From contig PBSU01000035.1 of NCBI GenBank assembly GCA_002726415.1, forward strand, positions 1 to 55,227: a DNA stretch of 55,227 nucleotides, written 5' to 3'. Within the stretch, counting starts at the first letter, position 1, and every line of letters starts with the position of its first letter. Source of the DNA: Acidiferrobacteraceae bacterium (GTDB lineage Bacteria > Pseudomonadota > Gammaproteobacteria > Arenicellales > UBA868). The notes beneath the pieces are model-generated. The model had not been told where the DNA came from. It ran no database searches and was given only the letters and a program-made list of their open reading frames with translations. This document shows, in pieces, positions 1,046 to 44,961 of this stretch. The translations under genes were made by a program, and so were the position numbers.

Positions 1046-1414
1046 CTTTCATAGTTCCTCTGGCTTATGGCGTTACGGCGACGGCTTGCTTTTAGGGGGC
1101 GATACGAGCGCCGCAACTTGTCCCGGGCGTATGGCCCAAGGCTGATGGGAGGGGTTCGGAGAGTGTGGGTGTTGTTCTGGGGTCTCAAAGTATCAGATGA
1201 TCAGTATAGGAAATATAATTTCATTGTGTGCCAGAAATCAAACATTAAATTCTAAAAAATCATCATATACAACAAAAAAACAAATTTAATTGCCGTACTT
1301 TCGTTGTCTAATTTCCAGTAACGCTCCCTTGGCCGGTTCTCATCTGTGCCAGGGGTATACCAGGCCGTCGCGCCGGGCAGCAGTTGCTGCCGTAGTGGAA
1401 ACAGGAGAAAAAGA
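1046..1414. promoter_or_regulatory. Divergent lrp / lyase intergenic region with AT-rich core and dyad
   Basis: This 369-base gap separates the divergent Lrp-type and lyase genes. The half near the lyase (about 1195-1320) is strikingly AT-rich compared with its surroundings. It contains a perfect dyad GAAAT-ATA-ATTTC at 1210-1222, which resembles the palindromic AT-rich sites bound by Lrp proteins. The lyase has a clear ribosome site, AGGAG at 1403-1407, ahead of ATG 1415. No convincing -35/-10 pair could be singled out. Open frames inside the gap have no recognisable protein character. Confidence 0.4.
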
Positions 1415-3064
1415 ATGACGATGAGCGGTAAGACGCTGACCCTAAATGGGCAGGACCTTTCACTGGAACAACTGGTTGAGGCCGGCCATGATCCTTCAAT
1501 CAATATCACTATCCAACCTAGCAACTGGCCCAAGATTGAGCAGTGTCGGGCGCTGGTCGAAAAGTGGGCTGATGAAGAACAGGTCATCTACGGTGTTAAT
1601 ACCAGCTGTGGTGGTCTGGTTAACTACTTGCTCCCCAAGGGCAACGACCGCGAGTTTCAACAAAACCTAATTCGCAGTGTGTCAACCAACGTGGGCACTT
1701 TTCTGCCTGACGAATTGGTCAGAACCACCATGATTGCCCGGGTCAATTCTTTGTGCCGGGGATATTCGGGTATCAAGTCAGAAAATCTCAAGATTTACCT
1801 GGAGATGATCAATCGGGGTGTCGTCCCGTGCGTACCCGAGCAGGGTTCACTCGGATCCAGCGGTGATCTGGGACCCCTTGGGTGTATCGCCTGTGTCGCG
1901 ATTGGCGAATGGAAGGCCCATTACCAGGGCAAGCTGATGGATGGGGGCGCAGCAATGGCTGCAGCGGGTATTCCCCTGATGAAACTTAACGCCAAGGAGG
2001 GCTTGTCGATGATTAACGGCACCTCCTGTATGGCCAGCATTGCCAGCAGTAACGTTTTCGAGGCCGGCCTTGCTATCAAGCAGTCAGATGCATTGGCGGC
2101 ACTATCCATCGAGACTCTGCTCGGACGCGCAAACCCATTCGACCTGCGGGTGCATCGGCAGAAATATCACCCCGGGCAATATGCCACTGCCTACAACTTG
2201 AGCAAACTGCTTGAAGGCAGTGACCTGGTACTGAACGAGCAGGAGGTTTCAGAAAATCTGCAGGGGTTGTTGAAAAAGAACAATAACATCCAGGCTGCGG
2301 ACATTCCGGTGGAAGATGCTTACTCGCTGCGTTGCACGCCGCAGCTCATTGGCCCCTGCCGTGACGGGCTACAGTTCGCAAGAGACATTGTTAACCGTGA
2401 AATCAATAGCAGTAATGACAACCCGCTCATATTTACCGAGTACGACACCTTTATCCATAATGGCCATTTTCAAGGGCAATATCTGTCACTCGCCATGGAT
2501 AACATCGCAACTGTGATGACCACCGTCAGCGTGATAAGTGATCGGCGTATCGATCGGTTTATGGACGCGAGCCACAGCGTGGGCTTACCTCCATTCCTGG
2601 TGGCCAACGATACGGGCCTGCGGATGGGCTTTATGCCGGGGCAGTTCATGACGTCGTCAGTGGTGGCGGAGAATCGTACCCTGTGTCTGCCGGCATCGGT
2701 ACAGTCGATACCTTCCACTGCAGACTTTCAGGATGTCGTCAGTTTCGGGTTGATTGCCGGTCGAAAGGCACGCAAGGTCGTTCGCAACACCAACTACGTG
2801 TTGGCGTTTGAACTGATGTGTGGTGCCCAAGCTGCCGACATTCGAGGCGCAGACCGCCTGAGTCCAGCATCACGAGCGCTGTACGAAGCGACTCGGGAAA
2901 CGGTGCCCTATCTGGACTACGATACCGTAATTATCGATTATCTTGAAGAGATCGCTCGCCGCCTGCGTCAAGGTGAATTCCTTGAGCGGGTGGAGCAGGT
3001 AGTGGGACCGCTGATGATGAACGATACATCGGGTGGCCGCGAGGAGTTGGCCAAGGCCGCCTGA
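1415..3064 (+). CDS. MIO-dependent aromatic amino acid ammonia-lyase / 2,3-aminomutase
   Basis: A 549-residue member of the histidine/phenylalanine/tyrosine ammonia-lyase superfamily. Start chosen at ATG 1415 because AGGAG lies 8-12 bases upstream; an earlier start would add a non-homologous leader. The MIO cofactor motif is GSLGSSGDLGPL, with Ser148-Ser149-Gly150 as the cyclising tripeptide. The catalytic tyrosine is Tyr59 in YGVNT. Selectivity residues (NLIRSVSTNVG), the GSLG-x-SGDLGPL context and the C-terminal pattern DIRGADRLSP resemble bacterial phenylalanine/tyrosine aminomutases of the AdmH type more than HutH. It may therefore make beta-Phe/beta-Tyr, or cinnamate/coumarate by simple elimination. 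The adjacent beta-transaminase-like gene favours the aminomutase reading. Exact substrate is not proven. Confidence 0.82.
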   Translation: MTMSGKTLTLNGQDLSLEQLVEAGHDPSINITIQPSNWPKIEQCRALVEKWADEEQVIYGVNTSCGGLVNYLLPKGNDREFQQNLIRSVSTNVGTFLPDELVRTTMIARVNSLCRGYSGIKSENLKIYLEMINRGVVPCVPEQGSLGSSGDLGPLGCIACVAIGEWKAHYQGKLMDGGAAMAAAGIPLMKLNAKEGLSMINGTSCMASIASSNVFEAGLAIKQSDALAALSIETLLGRANPFDLRVHRQKYHPGQYATAYNLSKLLEGSDLVLNEQEVSENLQGLLKKNNNIQAADIPVEDAYSLRCTPQLIGPCRDGLQFARDIVNREINSSNDNPLIFTEYDTFIHNGHFQGQYLSLAMDNIATVMTTVSVISDRRIDRFMDASHSVGLPPFLVANDTGLRMGFMPGQFMTSSVVAENRTLCLPASVQSIPSTADFQDVVSFGLIAGRKARKVVRNTNYVLAFELMCGAQAADIRGADRLSPASRALYEATRETVPYLDYDTVIIDYLEEIARRLRQGEFLERVEQVVGPLMMNDTSGGREELAKAA

Positions 3065-4450: not shown

Positions 4451-6667
4451 TCAGCCACCGCTGATGGCATTGACAAAGGAAACCCGGTCACCATCGCGTA
4501 CCGGGGTCGTCCGCTCGCCAGACAGGATAGTCTGGCCGTTGAGAACAGCCATAGACAGTTCGTTGTCGAGTCGCCCAGCAAGGGTTGGGCAGTGTCGCTC
4601 CAGCGCAATGCGGAGTTCGGCCAGGTCGGCTACCGGCTCGTCCAGCAGGACCGTTTCGGCGGGTTGTTCCGCTTCCCGGGGAAAATCAACCGTGACCGCA
4701 AAGCCGGTGGCTGCGCGCACCAATGTCTCACGCCATTGTGGCCGCGGAAGCCCCGTCTCAGTCAGTCCAGACACCTCGTAAAAACGCCCTTTAAGAGCCT
4801 CAAATGCGATGGGATCGAGTCGCTCCCCCTGATAGGGGCCGTCACTGGCGCCTTCTTGAAACCAGCGTTGTGGGACAGTATCGTCGGCCGGGCCCAGGCC
4901 AAGGCGGTGATTTAGCAGTCGCTCCAGACCATTGATATTGGCGCCGGCCGCTTCCACCGCGGTGGCCGTGATATCAATTCCGGTGAGCCGGCTCAGTTGG
5001 ACTGCGAAGTCATTGCAATCGGGCAGACTGGGTGAGTTGAACAGCCAGGTATTAAAACGACACATACCCACTGCATCGCCACTGGCATAGACACGTTCAC
5101 AGCGCGCCACGGCATGCTCCTTACCCTCATAGTCGGTAGGTTTGGCAGAGACCTCGCCACCGTACAATTCCTGTTTAAACTGGGGGTCATCATTGATACG
5201 GGCATTGATTTCAAGTGTGACCCGGTTGCGTAGATGATCCATGCCGCGAGTTGCCACTGCCAGTCCAAGCGCGAAAGCTTTGATGATGCGTGCATCATGG
5301 GGATCTGACTGGAACAACCCCTTTGATGCCATGCGGTAGTCCAGCGCCGCAGGGGGATATTTGCCGCGCGCTACCGCCTTGCCCGAGTCGGCGAGGGTAT
5401 CGCCAAAACCGCTGCGTTCGGCGATCAACAGCAACAGGTCTTCAATCAGTTTACCGTCGCCCCAATTCAACTCAAGGCCACCGGTATTCGCGGTCGTAAT
5501 CAGGCCGTGCTGGTAGAGCTCCATGGCCCAGGCAATGGCACTTCCGGTGCTGGCTGAGTCTAGCCCGAGGTCGTTGAGCATATTGTTGAAACGAATAACC
5601 TGTTCGGGCTGGTCAATACCCAGGCCCGGCCCAAACTTGCCGAGCGTGACATATTCCGGGCCATCACCATGTGACCAGTTATCCTGATTCGCCTCTTTGC
5701 CGGGAGGGCAGGGCAGGCGGTTACGTGCACGGCAGTACACCGGGCATTTGTAGCACCCGGCCATGCCGTCGCGGTAGTCGTCAAAGTGCTCTGCATCGAG
5801 CGTCTCACGCCAGCCTGTGCGCTGATGATTGCGAACACCCAGCGCCCCAAGTAGTCGGCTCGGCTTGTAGAGAAACGGAGTGCCGACTGTTTTCAATACT
5901 TTACGGGTCACACTGGTGCTGAGGATCTTGCGGCCGATCGCTTTACTTGAGGCCCGGTAGTCGTCACCCATCGGCAAAGCCGCTGGACGGCCCAGGATCA
6001 GGATTGCCTTGAGCCCCAAGGCACCCATCTTGGCACCAGCACCGCCGCGTGCCCAGATGGACTTGGGCCCAGCCATAATTCCGGCAGACAAAACGAGATT
6101 CTCACCTGCTCGAGTAATGCGGGCCATTGCCATATCCCGGCCTTCCTGGCAGGCGAAGTCCCGTTCGATCGCGGTTGTGAGTGCAATGTTGTCCAGACCC
6201 TGGTAGCAATTCCCATCCAGAAACTCGGTCGCACCCGGGTCCAGTTTGAGCAGCGTCCAGCCTGGCGATCGCCCGTAAAGCACAATATGGTCAATGCCCT
6301 GGCGGCGCATAAATGACGGGAAATAATCACCCGCGTTACTATCGAGAATAGCGTCACTGTCTGGAGCTACGCCGCTAACGTTTCCACGGGGTGCTCCGGG
6401 GATCAGTGAGGTCAGTACTCCGGCGCCAAAGATCAGCGGAACTTGTGGATCCAATGGATCCAATCCTTCCGGGAGCAGGTTATACAGCAATGCCATGTTG
6501 GCGCCTCGGCCTCCCAGGAAATGCTCAAAGATCTCTTTTGGGAGAAAAATTTGGCGAGTTTCACGGTGCTGAAGGTCGACAAACAGCGTAGCGCCCTGGG
6601 TCGCAAATTGCGGCTTATCGTGAGATCGCTCGCACAGACGCCTGACCCGCTCACGGGTATCCATCAT
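4451..6667 (-). CDS. Aldehyde:ferredoxin oxidoreductase with C-terminal MoaD/ThiS-like domain
   Basis: At 738 residues this is about 100 longer than typical tungsten AORs. The N-terminal pterin-binding part has GGRGANMALLYN and APRGN (about 52-95). [4Fe-4S] ligands are Cys305, Cys308 and Cys312 (CYKCPVYC) plus Cys536 (VGMCRF). After the usual AOR end (RFYEVSGL, about 630) residues ~655-738 form a beta-grasp MoaD-like domain: FAVTVDF, LRIALERHCPTLAG, VLNG, DGDRVSFVNAISGG. It ends exactly in the Gly-Gly tail used by sulfur-carrier proteins. Family role: oxidation of aldehydes to acids with reduction of ferredoxin. It is last in the ring-degradation operon, and its ATG overlaps the regulator stop (ATGA). 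Likely substrates are aryl aldehydes, with the electrons usable by benzoyl-CoA reductase. Confidence 0.9.
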   Translation of the reverse strand: MMDTRERVRRLCERSHDKPQFATQGATLFVDLQHRETRQIFLPKEIFEHFLGGRGANMALLYNLLPEGLDPLDPQVPLIFGAGVLTSLIPGAPRGNVSGVAPDSDAILDSNAGDYFPSFMRRQGIDHIVLYGRSPGWTLLKLDPGATEFLDGNCYQGLDNIALTTAIERDFACQEGRDMAMARITRAGENLVLSAGIMAGPKSIWARGGAGAKMGALGLKAILILGRPAALPMGDDYRASSKAIGRKILSTSVTRKVLKTVGTPFLYKPSRLLGALGVRNHQRTGWRETLDAEHFDDYRDGMAGCYKCPVYCRARNRLPCPPGKEANQDNWSHGDGPEYVTLGKFGPGLGIDQPEQVIRFNNMLNDLGLDSASTGSAIAWAMELYQHGLITTANTGGLELNWGDGKLIEDLLLLIAERSGFGDTLADSGKAVARGKYPPAALDYRMASKGLFQSDPHDARIIKAFALGLAVATRGMDHLRNRVTLEINARINDDPQFKQELYGGEVSAKPTDYEGKEHAVARCERVYASGDAVGMCRFNTWLFNSPSLPDCNDFAVQLSRLTGIDITATAVEAAGANINGLERLLNHRLGLGPADDTVPQRWFQEGASDGPYQGERLDPIAFEALKGRFYEVSGLTETGLPRPQWRETLVRAATGFAVTVDFPREAEQPAETVLLDEPVADLAELRIALERHCPTLAGRLDNELSMAVLNGQTILSGERTTPVRDGDRVSFVNAISGG

Positions 6668-7563
6668 GGCCTGTGACTCGGTTTTCCTGGCTGAAGGCGC
6701 ACAATTTCCAATAAGCGTCGGATGCAGGCTGGCTCCGATAGTTCGCTGGTATTAATGACGGCATCAGCGAGTTGGTAATAGGGTTCGCGTTCGTTCAGCA
6801 TCTCTGTCAGGTCAGCCAGGGCTTCAGGGTTGCCTTCCATCGGTCGAAAATCCTTCTGTGCCAGAACCCGCTGCATATGATCTTCCGGGCGAGCTTGAAG
6901 CCAGATTGTAACGTAGTGGGTCAGCAGATAATTGAAACTCACCGGATCATTAATAATACCGCCGCCGGCTTCAAGAATGATACCTTCGTGTTGTTGGCGG
7001 ATGCGCGCCAGGGCGCGTTGTTCCACACGTCGGTAGGCCGCCTGGCCTGACAGAGCATGAATTTCGTCGGTAGACATACCGGCATCCTTCTCTGTTTCTT
7101 CGGTCAAGCGGACAAAAAGTCGATCGGTTTTCTCAGCCAGGGCCATCCCCAGGGTGCTTTTGCCCGCCCCCCGCACACCCAGCAGAGCAAAGCCTCCCTG
7201 CTTGTGTACATGACCGTCTATGTGATGGTCGAGAAAATCGCCCACCTGACGCAACTGTGCCGAGCTAAGCGCAGCGAGTCTTTCTGACAGCAGATTGCGG
7301 TCCCGATCCTGCAGTTGCTCGGTACAGACCAACTCGGATAGTGGAACCTGCATGGCGGCTGCCAGTTGGCGCAAGCGCCGGATGGAAGGGTTGCCTTTGC
7401 CGGTTTCAATCTGCGCGAGATAACGAGTGGAAATCTCCGAGTCATCAGCTAATTGCGCGCGTGTTATTCCCATGCGCAAGCGCAGGTTGCGGATCCGCTG
7501 GCCGAGACGGGCCAGAAAAGCCTCTTCCTGCCCATTGTGGTGCGAAGAGTGGGTGAAAACCAC
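6664..7563 (-). CDS. bzdR: XRE-type regulator with shikimate-kinase-like domain (BzdR/BoxR type)
   Basis: A 299-residue two-domain protein. Residues ~17-75 form an XRE/Cro helix-turn-helix (RIRNLRLRMGITRAQLA, then STRYLAQIETGKGNPS). Residues ~120-295 resemble shikimate kinase, with Walker A GVRGAGKST at 129-137. This architecture is characteristic of BzdR and BoxR, the benzoyl-CoA-responsive repressors of anaerobic and aerobic benzoate pathways. In those proteins the kinase-like domain binds benzoyl-CoA. The gene sits inside the catabolic operon between the SDR (20-base gap) and AOR (4-base overlap), so the regulator would be made together with its targets. The start is probably GTG at 7563. 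Its operator is not obvious: the expected paired TGCA motifs were not found near had. Confidence 0.88.
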   Translation of the reverse strand: MVFTHSSHHNGQEEAFLARLGQRIRNLRLRMGITRAQLADDSEISTRYLAQIETGKGNPSIRRLRQLAAAMQVPLSELVCTEQLQDRDRNLLSERLAALSSAQLRQVGDFLDHHIDGHVHKQGGFALLGVRGAGKSTLGMALAEKTDRLFVRLTEETEKDAGMSTDEIHALSGQAAYRRVEQRALARIRQQHEGIILEAGGGIINDPVSFNYLLTHYVTIWLQARPEDHMQRVLAQKDFRPMEGNPEALADLTEMLNEREPYYQLADAVINTSELSEPACIRRLLEIVRLQPGKPSHRP

Positions 7564-39771: not shown

Positions 39772-39799
39772 TTGACAAAATAACGTTATTTAATTTAAT
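39772..39799 (+). promoter_or_regulatory. Strong-looking sigma-70 promoter of the benzoyl-CoA reductase operon
   Basis: TTGACA (39772-39777) and TTTAAT (39794-39799) form a nearly consensus -35/-10 pair with a 16-base spacer. The spacer contains a perfect 12-base palindrome, AATAACGTTATT (39779-39790). Predicted transcription start is near 39806. The remaining upstream part of the 319-base gap (39516-39771) holds no recognisable gene; a weak GAGCT/AGCTC stem after the DppF-type gene lacks a T-run. Confidence 0.6.
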
Positions 39800-39806
39800 G
39801 TATTAG

Positions 39807-39826
39807 CATACTGACTGGTCGGTATG
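39807..39826. promoter_or_regulatory. TetR-type operator candidate ahead of the TetR-BcrC fusion gene
   Basis: CATACTGACTGGTCGGTATG is a 20-base dyad in which 16 positions agree with its own reverse complement. It begins at the predicted transcription start and ends eight bases before ATG 39835, overlapping the first base of the ribosome site GGGAG. Length and layout fit the sites of TetR-family repressors. The obvious candidate binder is the regulator domain encoded by the gene itself, which would give autoregulation of the whole reductase operon. Confidence 0.6.
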
Positions 39827-39834
39827 GGAGAAAA

Positions 39835-41685
39835 ATGACTATAGCGCACATGACACAAACGCCCGCTGCGGTGGAGCGGATCCTGGCCGTGGCCGAGCCG
39901 CTGTTTCTGGCCGCCAGCTACGCTGACGTGACGATGGACCAGATTGCCCGCAAGGCTGGATTGACGAAAGGTGGCCTGTACCACCATTTCGTCAGTAAGG
40001 AAGGTCTGTACCTGGAAATGATGCAGGCCGACCTTGCGGAGAAACAGGCATTGTTTACCGTGGCGGCCCGCCCCCCGGGTGATTGTCGGGCCCGGCTTCG
40101 CAAACTGACCCATGCGTACTTCGAAATGCCCGATCACAAGCGTCAATTGATCAGCCTGATCCGGCGCAACAGTAACGTCCTGGGCGAAGCTGCGCGCACG
40201 CGCTTGATCAGCGCCTACCAGCGAGCGCTTCCCAACCAGATCCTATCCATCATTAAAGATGGAATACGCGCAGGGGAGATTCAGACCGGCGACCCCCGTC
40301 TGCTGGCCTGGTCATTCGTCGCACTGGTGGAAACTGCGATCAGTGCGCATGGTGACCGGGTGTTAGAAGATCCTTCAGAAAAACTTGATTTTGTTCTGGA
40401 CCTTTTTTTCCGAGGGGCTCAATTCCCAGCGGATAGTCAAGGTGGCACGGTGCTGAAGAACAGTGCCTTGACAGCATCGGGAAGGCCGCTGGCAGTAACC
40501 GCTCCGACCGGTTATTCCGGAAGCGACGTTTTTCCTGAGTGGCAGGGCCAGAATTTAGACGACATGCTGCTGGCTTGTCGTGATCTGGTCGAGGATGGCG
40601 ACTTTCCGACGGTGCAACGTTGGCGGGATGGCGGTGGCCGGGTTCTGGGCCATTTTCAAGTGTATTTTCCTGAGGAAATCGCGCATGCCGCGGGGATGCT
40701 ACCCTTCAAATTGCGCGGTGCTCCCGTTGAGCCCGATCATGCAGATTCTCGCTTTGGTTCGTACCTGTGTTCTATCCTAAAGACGTCGCTGGAGCTTGTG
40801 CTGAGTGACCGGGTAGAACTGGATATGTTTGTTACCCATCCGATCTGTGATGCGGCCCGAAATCTGGCCGCAGTTTGGGAACGTAACAGCGAACATCCCT
40901 GCCAGATCTTATACCTGCCGCAGAATGCAAACTCCGCTGATAGCGCGCGTTATTTGCGTAACGAGTACGCGCGGCTGATGGAAGTCGTCCAGCAGGTTTC
41001 CGGCACTACGATCACCGAAGATGACCTTCGAAACTCAATTGAGTTGTTCAATCGCAATCGAGCCTTGATCAGGGAGTTATACGACATTAAGCGTGAAACA
41101 CCCTGGCTGTTAAGCGCCGAGGATGCCTATTGCCTGGTATCGGTAGGCGGGATGGTGCCACGCGAGGAGCACAATGCCTTGCTTGAGAAAGTGTTGCCGA
41201 TGATCCGGGATCGGGCCGACTCTAACCAGGAGGACCGGGTCCGGGTGGTATTTGAGGGCGGCTTCTGCGAACAGCCACCGTTAGATTTGATTCGTATGGT
41301 CGGCCGCTCGTGTTACGTCGTGGATGACGACTTTTTAATTGGTCTGCGTTGGATTCTTGAAGACGTGCCGAACACGGGTGATCCATTGCACCAGTTGGCC
41401 GAAGCTTATCTGGAAAAATCATCTTACAGCCCAGTGCAGCACGACCTGCGCAAGCCCAAGGAGAAGATGCTCAAAGAACGAATCAGCAGTGCCAGAGCAG
41501 ATGCCGCCATCATTACCGCGGCCAAGATGTGTGAGCCGGGGTTGGAGGAGCAGGTCTGCTATACCCGCTCTTTGGATGAGGACAATATCGGGTACTTCGT
41601 CAGTGAGTTCGAAGAAAACATGACGAGCTTTGACCATCTGGGTCTGCAGATCGAAACTTTTATGGAAAACCTGATGTACCAGTGA
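39835..41685 (+). CDS. bcrC: TetR-family regulator fused to benzoyl-CoA reductase catalytic subunit (BcrC/BzdN type)
   Basis: A single uninterrupted frame of 616 residues. Residues ~10-60 are a TetR helix-turn-helix (VTMDQIARKAGLTKGGLYHHF), and ~65-195 a TetR-like helical ligand domain. A linker (~196-240) follows, then residues ~241-616 are a complete BcrC/BzdN subunit: YFPEEIAHAAGMLPF, SYLCSILKTSLEL, HPICDAARNL, FEGGFCEQPPLDLIRM and MCEPG. Cys312, Cys338 and Cys566 are the likely [4Fe-4S] ligands, so the enzyme half looks active. Standalone BcrC proteins are about 375-385 residues. GGGAG precedes ATG 39835. An internal ATG at 40564 (residue 244) could yield free BcrC but has no clear ribosome site. 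It heads the reductase operon. Confidence 0.9.
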   Translation: MTIAHMTQTPAAVERILAVAEPLFLAASYADVTMDQIARKAGLTKGGLYHHFVSKEGLYLEMMQADLAEKQALFTVAARPPGDCRARLRKLTHAYFEMPDHKRQLISLIRRNSNVLGEAARTRLISAYQRALPNQILSIIKDGIRAGEIQTGDPRLLAWSFVALVETAISAHGDRVLEDPSEKLDFVLDLFFRGAQFPADSQGGTVLKNSALTASGRPLAVTAPTGYSGSDVFPEWQGQNLDDMLLACRDLVEDGDFPTVQRWRDGGGRVLGHFQVYFPEEIAHAAGMLPFKLRGAPVEPDHADSRFGSYLCSILKTSLELVLSDRVELDMFVTHPICDAARNLAAVWERNSEHPCQILYLPQNANSADSARYLRNEYARLMEVVQQVSGTTITEDDLRNSIELFNRNRALIRELYDIKRETPWLLSAEDAYCLVSVGGMVPREEHNALLEKVLPMIRDRADSNQEDRVRVVFEGGFCEQPPLDLIRMVGRSCYVVDDDFLIGLRWILEDVPNTGDPLHQLAEAYLEKSSYSPVQHDLRKPKEKMLKERISSARADAAIITAAKMCEPGLEEQVCYTRSLDEDNIGYFVSEFEENMTSFDHLGLQIETFMENLMYQ

Positions 41686-41719: not shown

Positions 41720-43012
41720 ATGGGACAGGATAGTCAAAGTGGTATCGTGGGGCGGGGCGCCCGGGATGGAGCCGAACTTTTCAGGCAGTGGTTTTCTTCG
41801 CTGGGTGATACCGCCGAACAGGGAGCACAGAGCGCCTATGTGTTTGTGATGGGCAGCATGAATGAAATCCTGAAGTCTTTTGATCTGCCGGTGGTGTTTC
41901 CCGAGATCAACTCGCTCCAGACTGCAGTACGACGGGTGGCCCACGAGTATCTCAACGAAGCTGAGGATTACGGCTATTCGCCCGATATCTGCGGCTACGT
42001 CAAAGCTGACGTGGCAGTACAGTTGCGCAACGGCGAGCACCCGATGGGCAGGATTCCTAAGCCTTCCCTGGCTGTTTATACCAATGCCTGTAATACCTAC
42101 ATCAAGTGGGCGGAGATCTGGGAGCGCATGTACCAGATTCCGATTTTCACACTGGACGTTCCGGGCAGTCGCGAGGGTGGGGTGCACACCGGCCCAGGCG
42201 ACCGGTCGTTCGAGAACGACCGCAGTTATGTCGAGGCCCAGGTCCGTGAATTGATTACCCTGTGCGAGGAAGTTACCGGGCGCAAGTTCGACATTGACAA
42301 GCTGCGCGAAGTATTGGGTTATGCCAACGACGTGGCCAGCAGTTGGCAGCGGGTGTTGGAGCTGAACGCCAGCCAGCCTTCGGTATTCAATGCCGTCACC
42401 GAGGGAACGGTATACCTGGGTGTTGCAAACGGCTTTCGTGGTACTGAAACCGGCAGTCGATACTTTAAGGAACTGGTCGAAGAGATGGAATACAAGTCGG
42501 CCAATGGTATCGGCACCCTGACGGAAGAGAAATACCGACTGATTTTTGTGGGTGTTCCCTGTTACCCGATTTTCCGGCGATTTAACGAAATGTTCTCTGA
42601 CTGGGGCGGCACTTTCGTTAATTCAACCTACCTGTGGTTCGCCTCTGGCGGTACCAACAGGGGCTTCCAGTACGATCTTCAGCGCCCGGTGGAGAGCCTG
42701 GCTGAGGGTGTATTGCTCAGCGTTCGTGATGCCATGGATAGCATGTTCCATCAGAGTTACATGGTTGAGGACATGATTGACGATATGCATGTGGACGGCG
42801 TGGTTTATCACCCGATCAAGAGCTGTCGCACAGTTTCTACCGGACTGGCGGATAGTCGACGCTACCTGATGGAGAAGTGTGATGTGCCGTCGCTGTTTCT
42901 GGAATCGGACATGATGGATAAGCGGGTTGTTTCTGAGGCCCAGATGAAGAATCGGATAGATGCGTTCTTTGAGGGTCTTGCATCGCGTCGCAGCCAGCAG
43001 GCGGCGGCCTGA
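41720..43012 (+). CDS. bcrB: Benzoyl-CoA reductase catalytic subunit B (BcrB/BzdO type)
   Basis: A 430-residue member of the HgdB/BcrB family. Recognisable parts are [68 protein letters not shown] and [22 protein letters not shown]. Cys91, Cys124 and Cys369 are the likely [4Fe-4S] ligands. With the BcrC-type half of the preceding protein it forms the dearomatising centre that reduces benzoyl-CoA by two electrons. It follows the fusion gene by 34 bases, with GAGGAGAGAT upstream of the start. Length is normal for the family. Confidence 0.93.
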
Positions 43013-43032: not shown

Positions 43033-43848
43033 ATGGCGTATGCAGCAGGCGTAGATGTGGGGTCGACCCAGAGTAAGGCCGCGATTGTTGACGAGGAGGG
43101 TAACTTAGTGGCAACCGCTCTTGATGATACCGGGGCGAATGTCGTGCAGGCAGCCGAGAAGGTATACCAACAGGCTTTGCAGGCCGCTAAATTGCGTGAA
43201 GAAGAGGTCGACTATGTGATCGGGACGGGTTACGGGCGCTACAAAGTGACTTTTGGTAACGCCCAGGTTACCGAGATCAGTTGTCACGGACGAGGTGCGG
43301 TAAAGATGTTCCCCGAAACCCGCACGGTAATCGACATGGGTGGCCAGGATACCAAGGCGATCAGTGTCAGCCCAGCCGGGGAAATCAACGATTTCTGCAT
43401 GAATGATAAGTGTGCCGCGGGAACTGGCCGTTTTCTGGGAGCTGCCGCGATGGCGCTGGATCTGTCTTTGGACGATCTGGGCCCCACGGCCTTAAAGTCA
43501 GACAAACCTGTACGGATCAGCACCACCTGTACGGTCTTCGCCGAGTCAGAGGTGCTGTCCTGGCTGGGCAAAGGAAAGAAACTGCCGGACATTCTCTGGG
43601 GGGTACACCAGTCGATCGCCACCCGGACCATCGGCTTGGTGCGCCGGGTGGGGCTGGAAGAGAAGATTACATTTACTGGCGGGGTGACCCGTAACGTGGC
43701 CATGGTTAAGGCGCTGGAAGATCGCCTGGGCATTCGCTTAAATGTGAATGAACAGGCTCACTACATGGGTGCGCTGGGCGCGGCACTTTTTGCTCTTGAC
43801 CATATTCTAGATAGCCGCAAACCTGCGGCCAACTCAGAGGTGGCGTAA
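43033..43848 (+). CDS. Benzoyl-CoA reductase ATP-hydrolysing activase subunit 1 (BadF/BadG/BcrA/BcrD family)
   Basis: A 271-residue ASKHA-fold ATPase. [15 protein letters not shown] is the phosphate-1 motif and [11 protein letters not shown] the phosphate-2 motif. Cys127 in NDKCAAGTG and Cys166 in [10 protein letters not shown] are the predicted ligands of the cluster shared between the two activase subunits. The ATPase half of class I benzoyl-CoA reductase couples two ATP to electron transfer. At 271 residues it fits the compact Azoarcus (BzdP/BzdQ) arrangement rather than Thauera BcrA (about 430). GTGYGRYKV and ISCHGRGA look BzdQ-like, but the P/Q labels are not certain. The stop overlaps the next ATG (TAATG). 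Confidence 0.9.
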
Positions 43849-44678
43849 TGGACTGTACAGTCGGTATAGACGTAGGCTCGACCTACACCAAATGTGTCAT
43901 CCTTTCGGCTGACGGAAAGATCGTTAGCCGAAAGTTGGCACAGACTGGGTTTAAATTGGGAGAAGTCTCGGCGCGATTATTGAACGAGACTCTGGCGGAA
44001 AGCGGGCTGGAACGCAGCGACATTGGCTATGTGATCGCTACCGGCTTTGGTCGTCACCAAGTTGAAGACAAGGACGCGGCGGTGACTGATCTCACCGCTG
44101 CGGCTCGTGGCACGGCGTTCTTTTTTCCCGATACCCGCACCGTGCTCGATATCGGTGGCCAGACTATGAAGGCAAGCCGGATTGACGAGAACTGCAAAGT
44201 GGATTCGTTTCGTCTGAACGATAAGTGCGCAGCGGGGACCGGCGCGTTTTTAGAAAAGACGGCGCATTATATGGGCTTCAAAACAGAGGATGTCGGACCG
44301 TTATTGACGACCTCACGTGAGTCTGTCTCCATATCCGGGGTATGTGCTGTGTTTGCCGAGTCTGAAGTGATCAATCACCTGTCGCAAGGCACCGCACCGG
44401 CGGATATTATGCAAGGTGCGATCTCATCGTTGATTAAGCGATCAGTCCAGTTAATGAAACGGGTTCGTGCCGAACCCGGGTATACCCTGGTTGGCGGCCT
44501 GTTACGGTTTCGCACGATGGTCGATGAGGTGCAAGACAAACTGGGTCAAAAAGTCAATGTGCCCGAAGGGGATCTGGTTCAGTTCGCGGCCGCTATGGGC
44601 GCTGCCGTGCTGGGACACCGGCGGATGCAGCAGTTGGGTATGGGCACCGGCCTTACAGTGGGTTCGGGTGCTGCCTAA
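43848..44678 (+). CDS. Benzoyl-CoA reductase ATP-hydrolysing activase subunit 2 (BadF/BadG/BcrA/BcrD family)
   Basis: A 276-residue paralogue of the preceding protein. Motifs are [48 protein letters not shown] and SGVCAVFAESEVINHL. The predicted cluster cysteines again fall at residues 127 and 166. Together the two subunits would make the heterodimeric activase. Having two compact subunits of nearly equal length marks an Azoarcus-type enzyme. The start overlaps the previous stop by one base, so synthesis is coupled. Its end overlaps a small downstream frame at 44668. Confidence 0.9.
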   Translation: MDCTVGIDVGSTYTKCVILSADGKIVSRKLAQTGFKLGEVSARLLNETLAESGLERSDIGYVIATGFGRHQVEDKDAAVTDLTAAARGTAFFFPDTRTVLDIGGQTMKASRIDENCKVDSFRLNDKCAAGTGAFLEKTAHYMGFKTEDVGPLLTTSRESVSISGVCAVFAESEVINHLSQGTAPADIMQGAISSLIKRSVQLMKRVRAEPGYTLVGGLLRFRTMVDEVQDKLGQKVNVPEGDLVQFAAAMGAAVLGHRRMQQLGMGTGLTVGSGAA

Positions 44679-44961
44679 GCCGTCGGTATCAGGTGGCTGT
44701 CGCAGTTCAGCGAGGACTGGCGCTGATGACACGGCTGATTCCAGTGCGGTCTCAGCCGACCCCACTCTTACCGCAGACGGCTGGGTAAAGCGTTATCTGG
44801 CCGATCCCGCCCGATCTGATGAAGCACGGGAACTGTACGCTTCGATGGGTTATGACGTGTACGAGCAAAAACTCGATCCTGCTGATTTCCCATCCAGTTG
44901 TGGTGAGTGCCCCTCAGTGGTCTGCCAGGGTTATGTCATGATCTATACCCGTCGGCGTTGA
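44668..44961 (+). CDS. Small Cys-containing protein coupled to the benzoyl-CoA reductase operon
   Basis: A 97-residue frame from GTG 44668, which overlaps the end of the activase gene; no later start codon exists in this frame before the conserved-looking part. The first ~35 residues are Ser/Ala/Asp-rich and low complexity. The rest looks like real protein: DGWVKRYLADPARSDEARELYASMGYDVYEQKL, then SSCGECPSVVCQGYVMIYTRRR, with Cys78, Cys81 and Cys86 (CxxCxxxxC). It is not a ferredoxin, since it lacks the CxxCxxCxxxCP sets. I do not recognise the family. Position suggests an accessory or metal-binding role in reductase assembly or electron delivery, which is inference. Confidence 0.6.
   Translation: MLPKPSVSGGCRSSARTGADDTADSSAVSADPTLTADGWVKRYLADPARSDEARELYASMGYDVYEQKLDPADFPSSCGECPSVVCQGYVMIYTRRR

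Follow-up and report, generated by a model that had tools for sequence, protein, structure and literature searches.

The window, by which we mean the whole 55,227-nt stretch of DNA analysed, carries a row of four reductase genes, the first of which fuses a TetR repressor to a reductase subunit (Table 1). Domain profiles assign TetR_N to residues 16–62 of the fusion protein, TetR_C_24 to 82–165 and HGD-D to 275–613. Both the helix-turn-helix (HTH) of TetR_N and the ligand domain score above their thresholds (PF00440, 51.3 bits, cut-off 24; PF17932, 27.9 bits, cut-off 26.4). The model of the TetR half has a pLDDT of 89.8, and PDB TetR structures match it at Z up to 19.6. Linker residues 197–226 fall below a pLDDT of 50, and the MbdN-like half carries the cysteine motifs CDAARNLA, GGFCEQPP and KMCEPG in its consensus.

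With two HGD-D and two BcrAD_BadFG subunits in one gene row, the operon has the composition of a class I benzoyl-CoA reductase. Since the NCBIfam equivalog cut-offs are missed (TIGR02263, 244.8 of 421.15; TIGR02260, 217.3 of 486.55), the enzyme is not of the bcr or bzd type. Its nearest relative is MbdONQP (PDB 9g87, 9gai), the best match of all four subunits, which differs in that subunit N here bears an N-terminal TetR repressor. The operon is best read as encoding a predicted ATP-dependent aryl-CoA reductase of the 3-methylbenzoyl-CoA reductase type. No HGD-D genes other than these two turned up in its own genome, which is 80% complete. After the last reductase subunit lies a short Cys-containing open frame (window about 44700–44961, +) in its own frame; it forms the end of ORF 44467–44961 and could represent a small gene.

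Elsewhere in the window are genes for the ring-opening enzyme Oah (665 bits with TIGR03200, against a cut-off of 464) and for a BzdR-type regulator at 6664–7563 (–), which scores 327 bits, against a cut-off of 204, with PRK08154 (anaerobic benzoate catabolism transcriptional regulator). Together they make anaerobic benzoyl-CoA degradation the likely setting. Given the BzdR-type gene, two regulators of aryl-CoA metabolism share one window. The aromatic-degradation region is headed by an aromatic amino acid lyase/aminomutase family protein (1346–3064), whose best profile, TIGR04475 (phenylalanine aminomutase), reaches 675 bits, under its cut-off of 800.

Table 1. Positions of the promoter elements, the fusion gene and the reductase genes in the window. 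L001–L004 are the other loci that carry the fusion.
Feature	Position	Strand	Basis or remark
-35 hexamer TTGACA	39772..39777	+	Identical in L001–L004, at the equivalent position upstream of the operator
Perfect palindrome AAATAACGTTATTT, 14/14	39778..39791	.	In the promoter spacer; probably no operator
TTTAAT, first -10 candidate, spacer 16	39794..39799	+	Not conserved in homologous promoters
TAATGT, preferred -10, spacer 18	39796..39801	+	5 nt before the operator
TetR operator (predicted)	39807..39826	.	Core ATAC-N10-GTAT at 39808–39825
Shine-Dalgarno GGGAG, probable	39826..39830	+	Read from the sequence; 4 nt before ATG
Start codon ATG of the fusion gene	39835	+	
Fusion gene, 616 aa, TetR repressor + MbdN/BcrC-type reductase subunit	39835..41685	+	Domain profiles
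TetR half, residues 1–196, complete TetR fold	39835..40422	+	Model
Linker, residues about 197–231, variable, predicted disordered	40423..40527	+	Model and alignment
Reductase subunit C / MbdN-like half, residues 232–616	40528..41682	+	9g87_B MbdN, E 1.5e-155
Reductase subunit B / MbdO-like	41720..43012	+	9g87_A MbdO, E 8e-167
ATPase/activase subunit A / MbdQ-like	43033..43848	+	9gai_D MbdQ, E 4.7e-121
ATPase/activase subunit D / MbdP-like	43848..44678	+	9gai_C MbdP, E 7.7e-89

Promoter and dyad upstream of the fusion gene

The initial annotation placed a near-consensus promoter, TTGACA-N16-TTTAAT, before the fusion gene. Both hexamers and the spacer are present as it described, and by count 11/12 positions agree with the consensus, but position 2 of TTTAAT is not the A of the consensus; a sigma-70 scan requiring this A did not list the promoter at 39772–39799. 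Comparison with homologous promoters points to a different -10 element. TTGAC(A/C/G) occupies the corresponding position ahead of the operator in L045, L025, L018, L069 and L063. The window and L001–L004 read TAATGT, TAGGGT, TAATGT, TAATGT and TAGTGT, each 5 nt before the operator, which gives TA(A/G)(T/G)GT as the conserved -10 hexamer of fused-gene promoters. T 39796, A 39797 and T 39801, bases 1, 2 and 6 of TAATGT, are invariant in six aligned promoters (the window, L001–L004 and the unfused L045). TAATGT overlaps TTTAAT and matches the -10 consensus at just 3/6 positions in the window. The true -10 is probably TAATGT rather than TTTAAT, and the first assignment would then be off by 2 nt.

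By the usual rules of -10-to-start spacing, TAATGT predicts a transcription start near 39808, inside the left edge of the operator, and either -10 predicts one at 39806–39810, inside it or at its edge. The operator thus covers or touches the predicted start under both assignments.

The dyad itself, CATACTGACTGGTCGGTATG, is self-complementary at 16 of its 20 positions, as first described, and its core, ATAC TGACTGGTCG GTAT, is an exact fit to ATACN10GTAT. In dinucleotide-preserving shuffles (3000 for each region), a 20-mer with at least 16/20 symmetry arose by chance in 12% of cases for the 319-nt intergenic region and in 5.9% for the 70-nt promoter stretch; the whole window holds 23 such 20-mers and 19 perfect 12-mers. 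At these chance levels symmetry alone is no proof of an operator, and it is conservation across genomes that makes the case. With the strong support of this comparison, set out below, the dyad is very probably an operator.

The fusion and its unfused relatives

The fusion is limited to a single lineage and occurs in five genomes (the window's and those of L001–L004), from its own family and one other family of the order. As five assemblies share it, the fusion is real, and we rejected an assembly artefact; L002 and L003 are near-identical, which leaves four distinct fused sequences. Among the best 80 of 202 relatives, 15 other loci have a separate tetR directly upstream of bcrC. In twelve of the 15 the two genes share an RTGA overlap; a gap of 20 nt separates them in two loci and a gap of 151 nt in one. 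The overlapping genes of relatives likely represent the ancestral state, from which the fusion would be one small step. Unfused tetR-bcrC and tetR-boxC pairs share the operator type before tetR and the position of tetR directly before the enzyme gene; they differ in yielding two proteins, often from overlapping genes, where the fusion yields one chain. In the tree, the fused TetRs group with TetRs preceding boxC (joint-group support 99/97) and on this evidence may be of single origin. A literature search, including the accessible portion of PMC4746011, found no TetR-reductase-subunit fusion; PMC11971306, in its accessible portion, concerns BzdNO.

The TetR halves of the other fused proteins are 56–87% identical to that of the window (28 TetR sequences compared), and the fusion is the one TetR of this subfamily in its own genome (80% complete).

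The overall regulatory arrangement is reminiscent of that of MbdR, the TetR repressor of the 3-methylbenzoyl-CoA reductase genes in Azoarcus sp. CIB. According to the accessible part of PMC4424350, the MbdR operator ATACN10GTAT spans the start at two promoters, MbdR also represses its own gene, and its inducer is 3-methylbenzoyl-CoA, with no response to benzoyl-CoA. Both systems combine a TetR repressor, ATACN10GTAT and a 3-methylbenzoyl-CoA-type reductase, and autorepression through an operator over or touching the start site is predicted here too. However, the MbdR system has several operators and the present one a single operator, whose centre is conserved as GACYRGTC, unlike in the MbdR system, and only here is the TetR fused to a reductase subunit. 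Moreover, the TetR half belongs to a different TetR subfamily from MbdR. The structure 4uds matched over the HTH only, ranking below many other TetRs, and its fold match (Z 17.6) was one among many. MbdR orthology, suggested by the operator and the enzyme match, was rejected on sequence, as the HTH alone aligns.

Distribution of the predicted operator across genomes

The initial annotation had called for a motif scan in relatives bearing the fusion, and there the site is conserved, in line with an operator for the TetR encoded downstream. In 33 family genomes a site with at most one mismatch occurs in ten, exactly those with a TetR of the subfamily (E <= 1e-40), and in 0/23 others; the reversed control pattern occurs in 0/33. 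The chance of this co-occurrence is 1/C(33,10) = 1.1e-8, a figure that ignores the relatedness of the genomes. All 11 sites in the family genomes adjoin a tetR of the subfamily, which covers 11/13 of its TetR genes; the two exceptions are G006:C77, whose site agrees at 18 of 20 positions, and G021:C88, which is preceded by another dyad. Within the window's own genome, which is 80% complete, so that further sites may be absent from the data, no second site was found with two or fewer mismatches to ATACYGACYRGTCRGTAT. At three mismatches it holds 5 sites, where the reversed control pattern gives 3, and we rejected a larger regulon in this genome.

We also counted ATACN10GTAT in the tetR-linked loci found at E < 1e-30, the window among them; of these 21, 20 were used, L073 lacking upstream DNA. 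It is exact in 9/20 upstream regions (0.05 expected) and present with at most one mismatch in 11/20 (0.96 expected). By contrast, it is exact in 0/59 upstream regions of bcrC without tetR (at least 150 nt each), where matches with at most one mismatch number 3/59 against 2.8 expected. The nine tetR-linked regions that fail even at one mismatch are all labelled Actinomycetota; their dyads, of which ACCGACCGGTCAGTCGGTCGGT is an example, are related and in most cases wider. This wider dyad, with overlapping half-sites, stands upstream of tetR in L029, L035, L050, L051, L062, L074 and L079 and may hold two dimers. Among the 18 operators compared, several of those before boxC-linked tetR genes in the genus lie against the start codon or extend into it.

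One genome carries, beside its fusion, an unfused second tetR-bcrC pair, 46% and 63% identical (G021:C88; L120, L123). L123 lies outside the 20 tetR-linked regions and carries another dyad. With different dyads, CATACCATTTGGTATG and CATACCCGTAAGTATG, before the tetR of G021:C88, a divergence of operator specificity seems to have taken place there; an in-frame TGA was reported within the bcrC match, and the stretch has many ambiguous bases.

Unfused TetRs of the family genomes that do not precede bcrC stand before boxC, with the same operator, in 7/7 readable cases (L122, where the contig ends and the next gene is unreadable, is left out). The boxC genes, cut by the locus end, score 698–713 bits with TIGR03222 (cut-off 712.3). 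Since box and reductase operons carry the same operator and the metabolite common to them is benzoyl-CoA, the inducer would most likely be an aryl-CoA, either benzoyl-CoA or a close analogue. The inducer of MbdR is not transferable, because the TetR half is no close relative and MbdR ignores benzoyl-CoA. The TetR model resembles many TetRs, including the acyl-CoA-responsive FadR and AibR, with QacR ranking first, and the fold therefore singles out no one ligand.

The window's own genome has a boxC as well (G000:C75:8394-10031, 848 bits), which has no subfamily TetR or operator directly upstream, unlike several genus mates. It is preceded by a long ORF, taken for an aldehyde dehydrogenase by eye. 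Control of this boxC operon by the same repressor was rejected, the best site in the locus reaching at most 14/20.

Proposed regulation by a fused repressor

The suggestion that the dyad is an autoregulatory operator, bound by the TetR domain of the gene that follows it, is supported by the co-occurrence of site and tetR, the uniqueness of the site and the precedent of MbdR. We consider it likely, with good confidence, that this is the autorepressed promoter of an aryl-CoA reductase operon, at which the fused TetR half binds CATACTGACTGGTCGGTATG until an aryl-CoA relieves repression. Sigma-70 RNA polymerase would use TTGACA and the -10 just upstream of the operator, and transcription would start inside the left edge of the operator. 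A dimer of the TetR half, assigned to the site because site and TetR subfamily co-occur, would bind there and block initiation. Binding of an aromatic acyl-CoA to the TetR half would free the DNA and switch the operon on; the likeliest such ligand is benzoyl-CoA or a closely related compound. As repressor and enzyme subunit are one chain, every new subunit would also be a new repressor, and the amount of inducer would set the limit on expression.

What sets this system apart is that repressor and enzyme subunit are covalently joined. The union could couple their control physically, or it could be no more than a fusion of genes whose product has a cleavable linker. Cleavage of the linker or an internal start would give a separate repressor and enzyme in the cell, as in unfused relatives, a reading that would leave the operator part of the favoured explanation intact. 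We regard it as possible, if on the unlikely side: the linker is variable and predicted to be disordered over its roughly 35 residues, and unfused pairs commonly overlap by RTGA, but the linkers of the five fused genes show no start codon with a Shine-Dalgarno sequence at a conserved place.

More doubtful is physically coupled control of a self-sensing kind. Trigger enzymes are enzymes that double as regulators, and the fusion resembles them in that one chain carries both an enzyme and a regulator of the gene encoding it, although here a dedicated repressor domain is attached. The repressor might then be active within the assembled reductase, the state of substrate or electron carrier would also set DNA binding, and enzyme and repressor dosage would be locked 1:1.

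It is quite improbable that the operator is bound in trans by another, unfused TetR and that the fused TetR half is a functionless relic. Related unfused TetRs with the same operator do occur in family genomes, and with both kinds present in G006 and G026, cross-talk is possible in these two. However, the window's own genome matches the TetR subfamily only once, as noted above, and the intact HTH and fold and the identity among fused TetR halves are unlike a decaying relic.

We consider it highly improbable that the spacer palindrome is the site of a second regulator, as the initial annotation had hinted. The palindrome is indeed perfect, over 14 bp rather than the 12 bp first given, and in shuffles a perfect 14-mer arose by chance in 1.9% of cases (319-nt region) or 1.1% (70-nt stretch), against 7% and 3.6% for a perfect 12-mer. 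A chance of 1–2% is nevertheless weak, since several features were inspected. As AAATAACGTTATTT is missing from the homologous spacer in all of L001–L004 and has no further copy within one mismatch in its own genome, a second operator was rejected, and the palindrome appears to be without a conserved role in the promoter.

A role of the dyad as RNA, a hairpin at the transcript start that protects the mRNA or tunes translation, is extremely improbable and was rejected: 39807–39826 does fold, with 8 bp in the stem and 4 nt in the loop (-8.4 kcal/mol, z -3.5), as expected of any such dyad, but the hairpin is weaker in L004 (-5.5) and replaced in L045 where ATAC...GTAT is kept or nearly kept, the site meets the start codon in the boxC-linked genes mentioned above, and it is strictly tied to the presence of the TetR.

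On the favoured reading, that of an autorepressed aryl-CoA reductase promoter, the operator is now defined and testable, its regulator can be named and the candidate inducers are few. Control of aryl-CoA reductases through ATACN10GTAT would extend to a second TetR subfamily, one that occurs in several phyla, and one operator would link the reductase with the aerobic boxC operons of benzoyl-CoA metabolism. The repressor is covalently part of the enzyme under its predicted control, and the overlapping genes from which this union likely arose are still visible in relatives.
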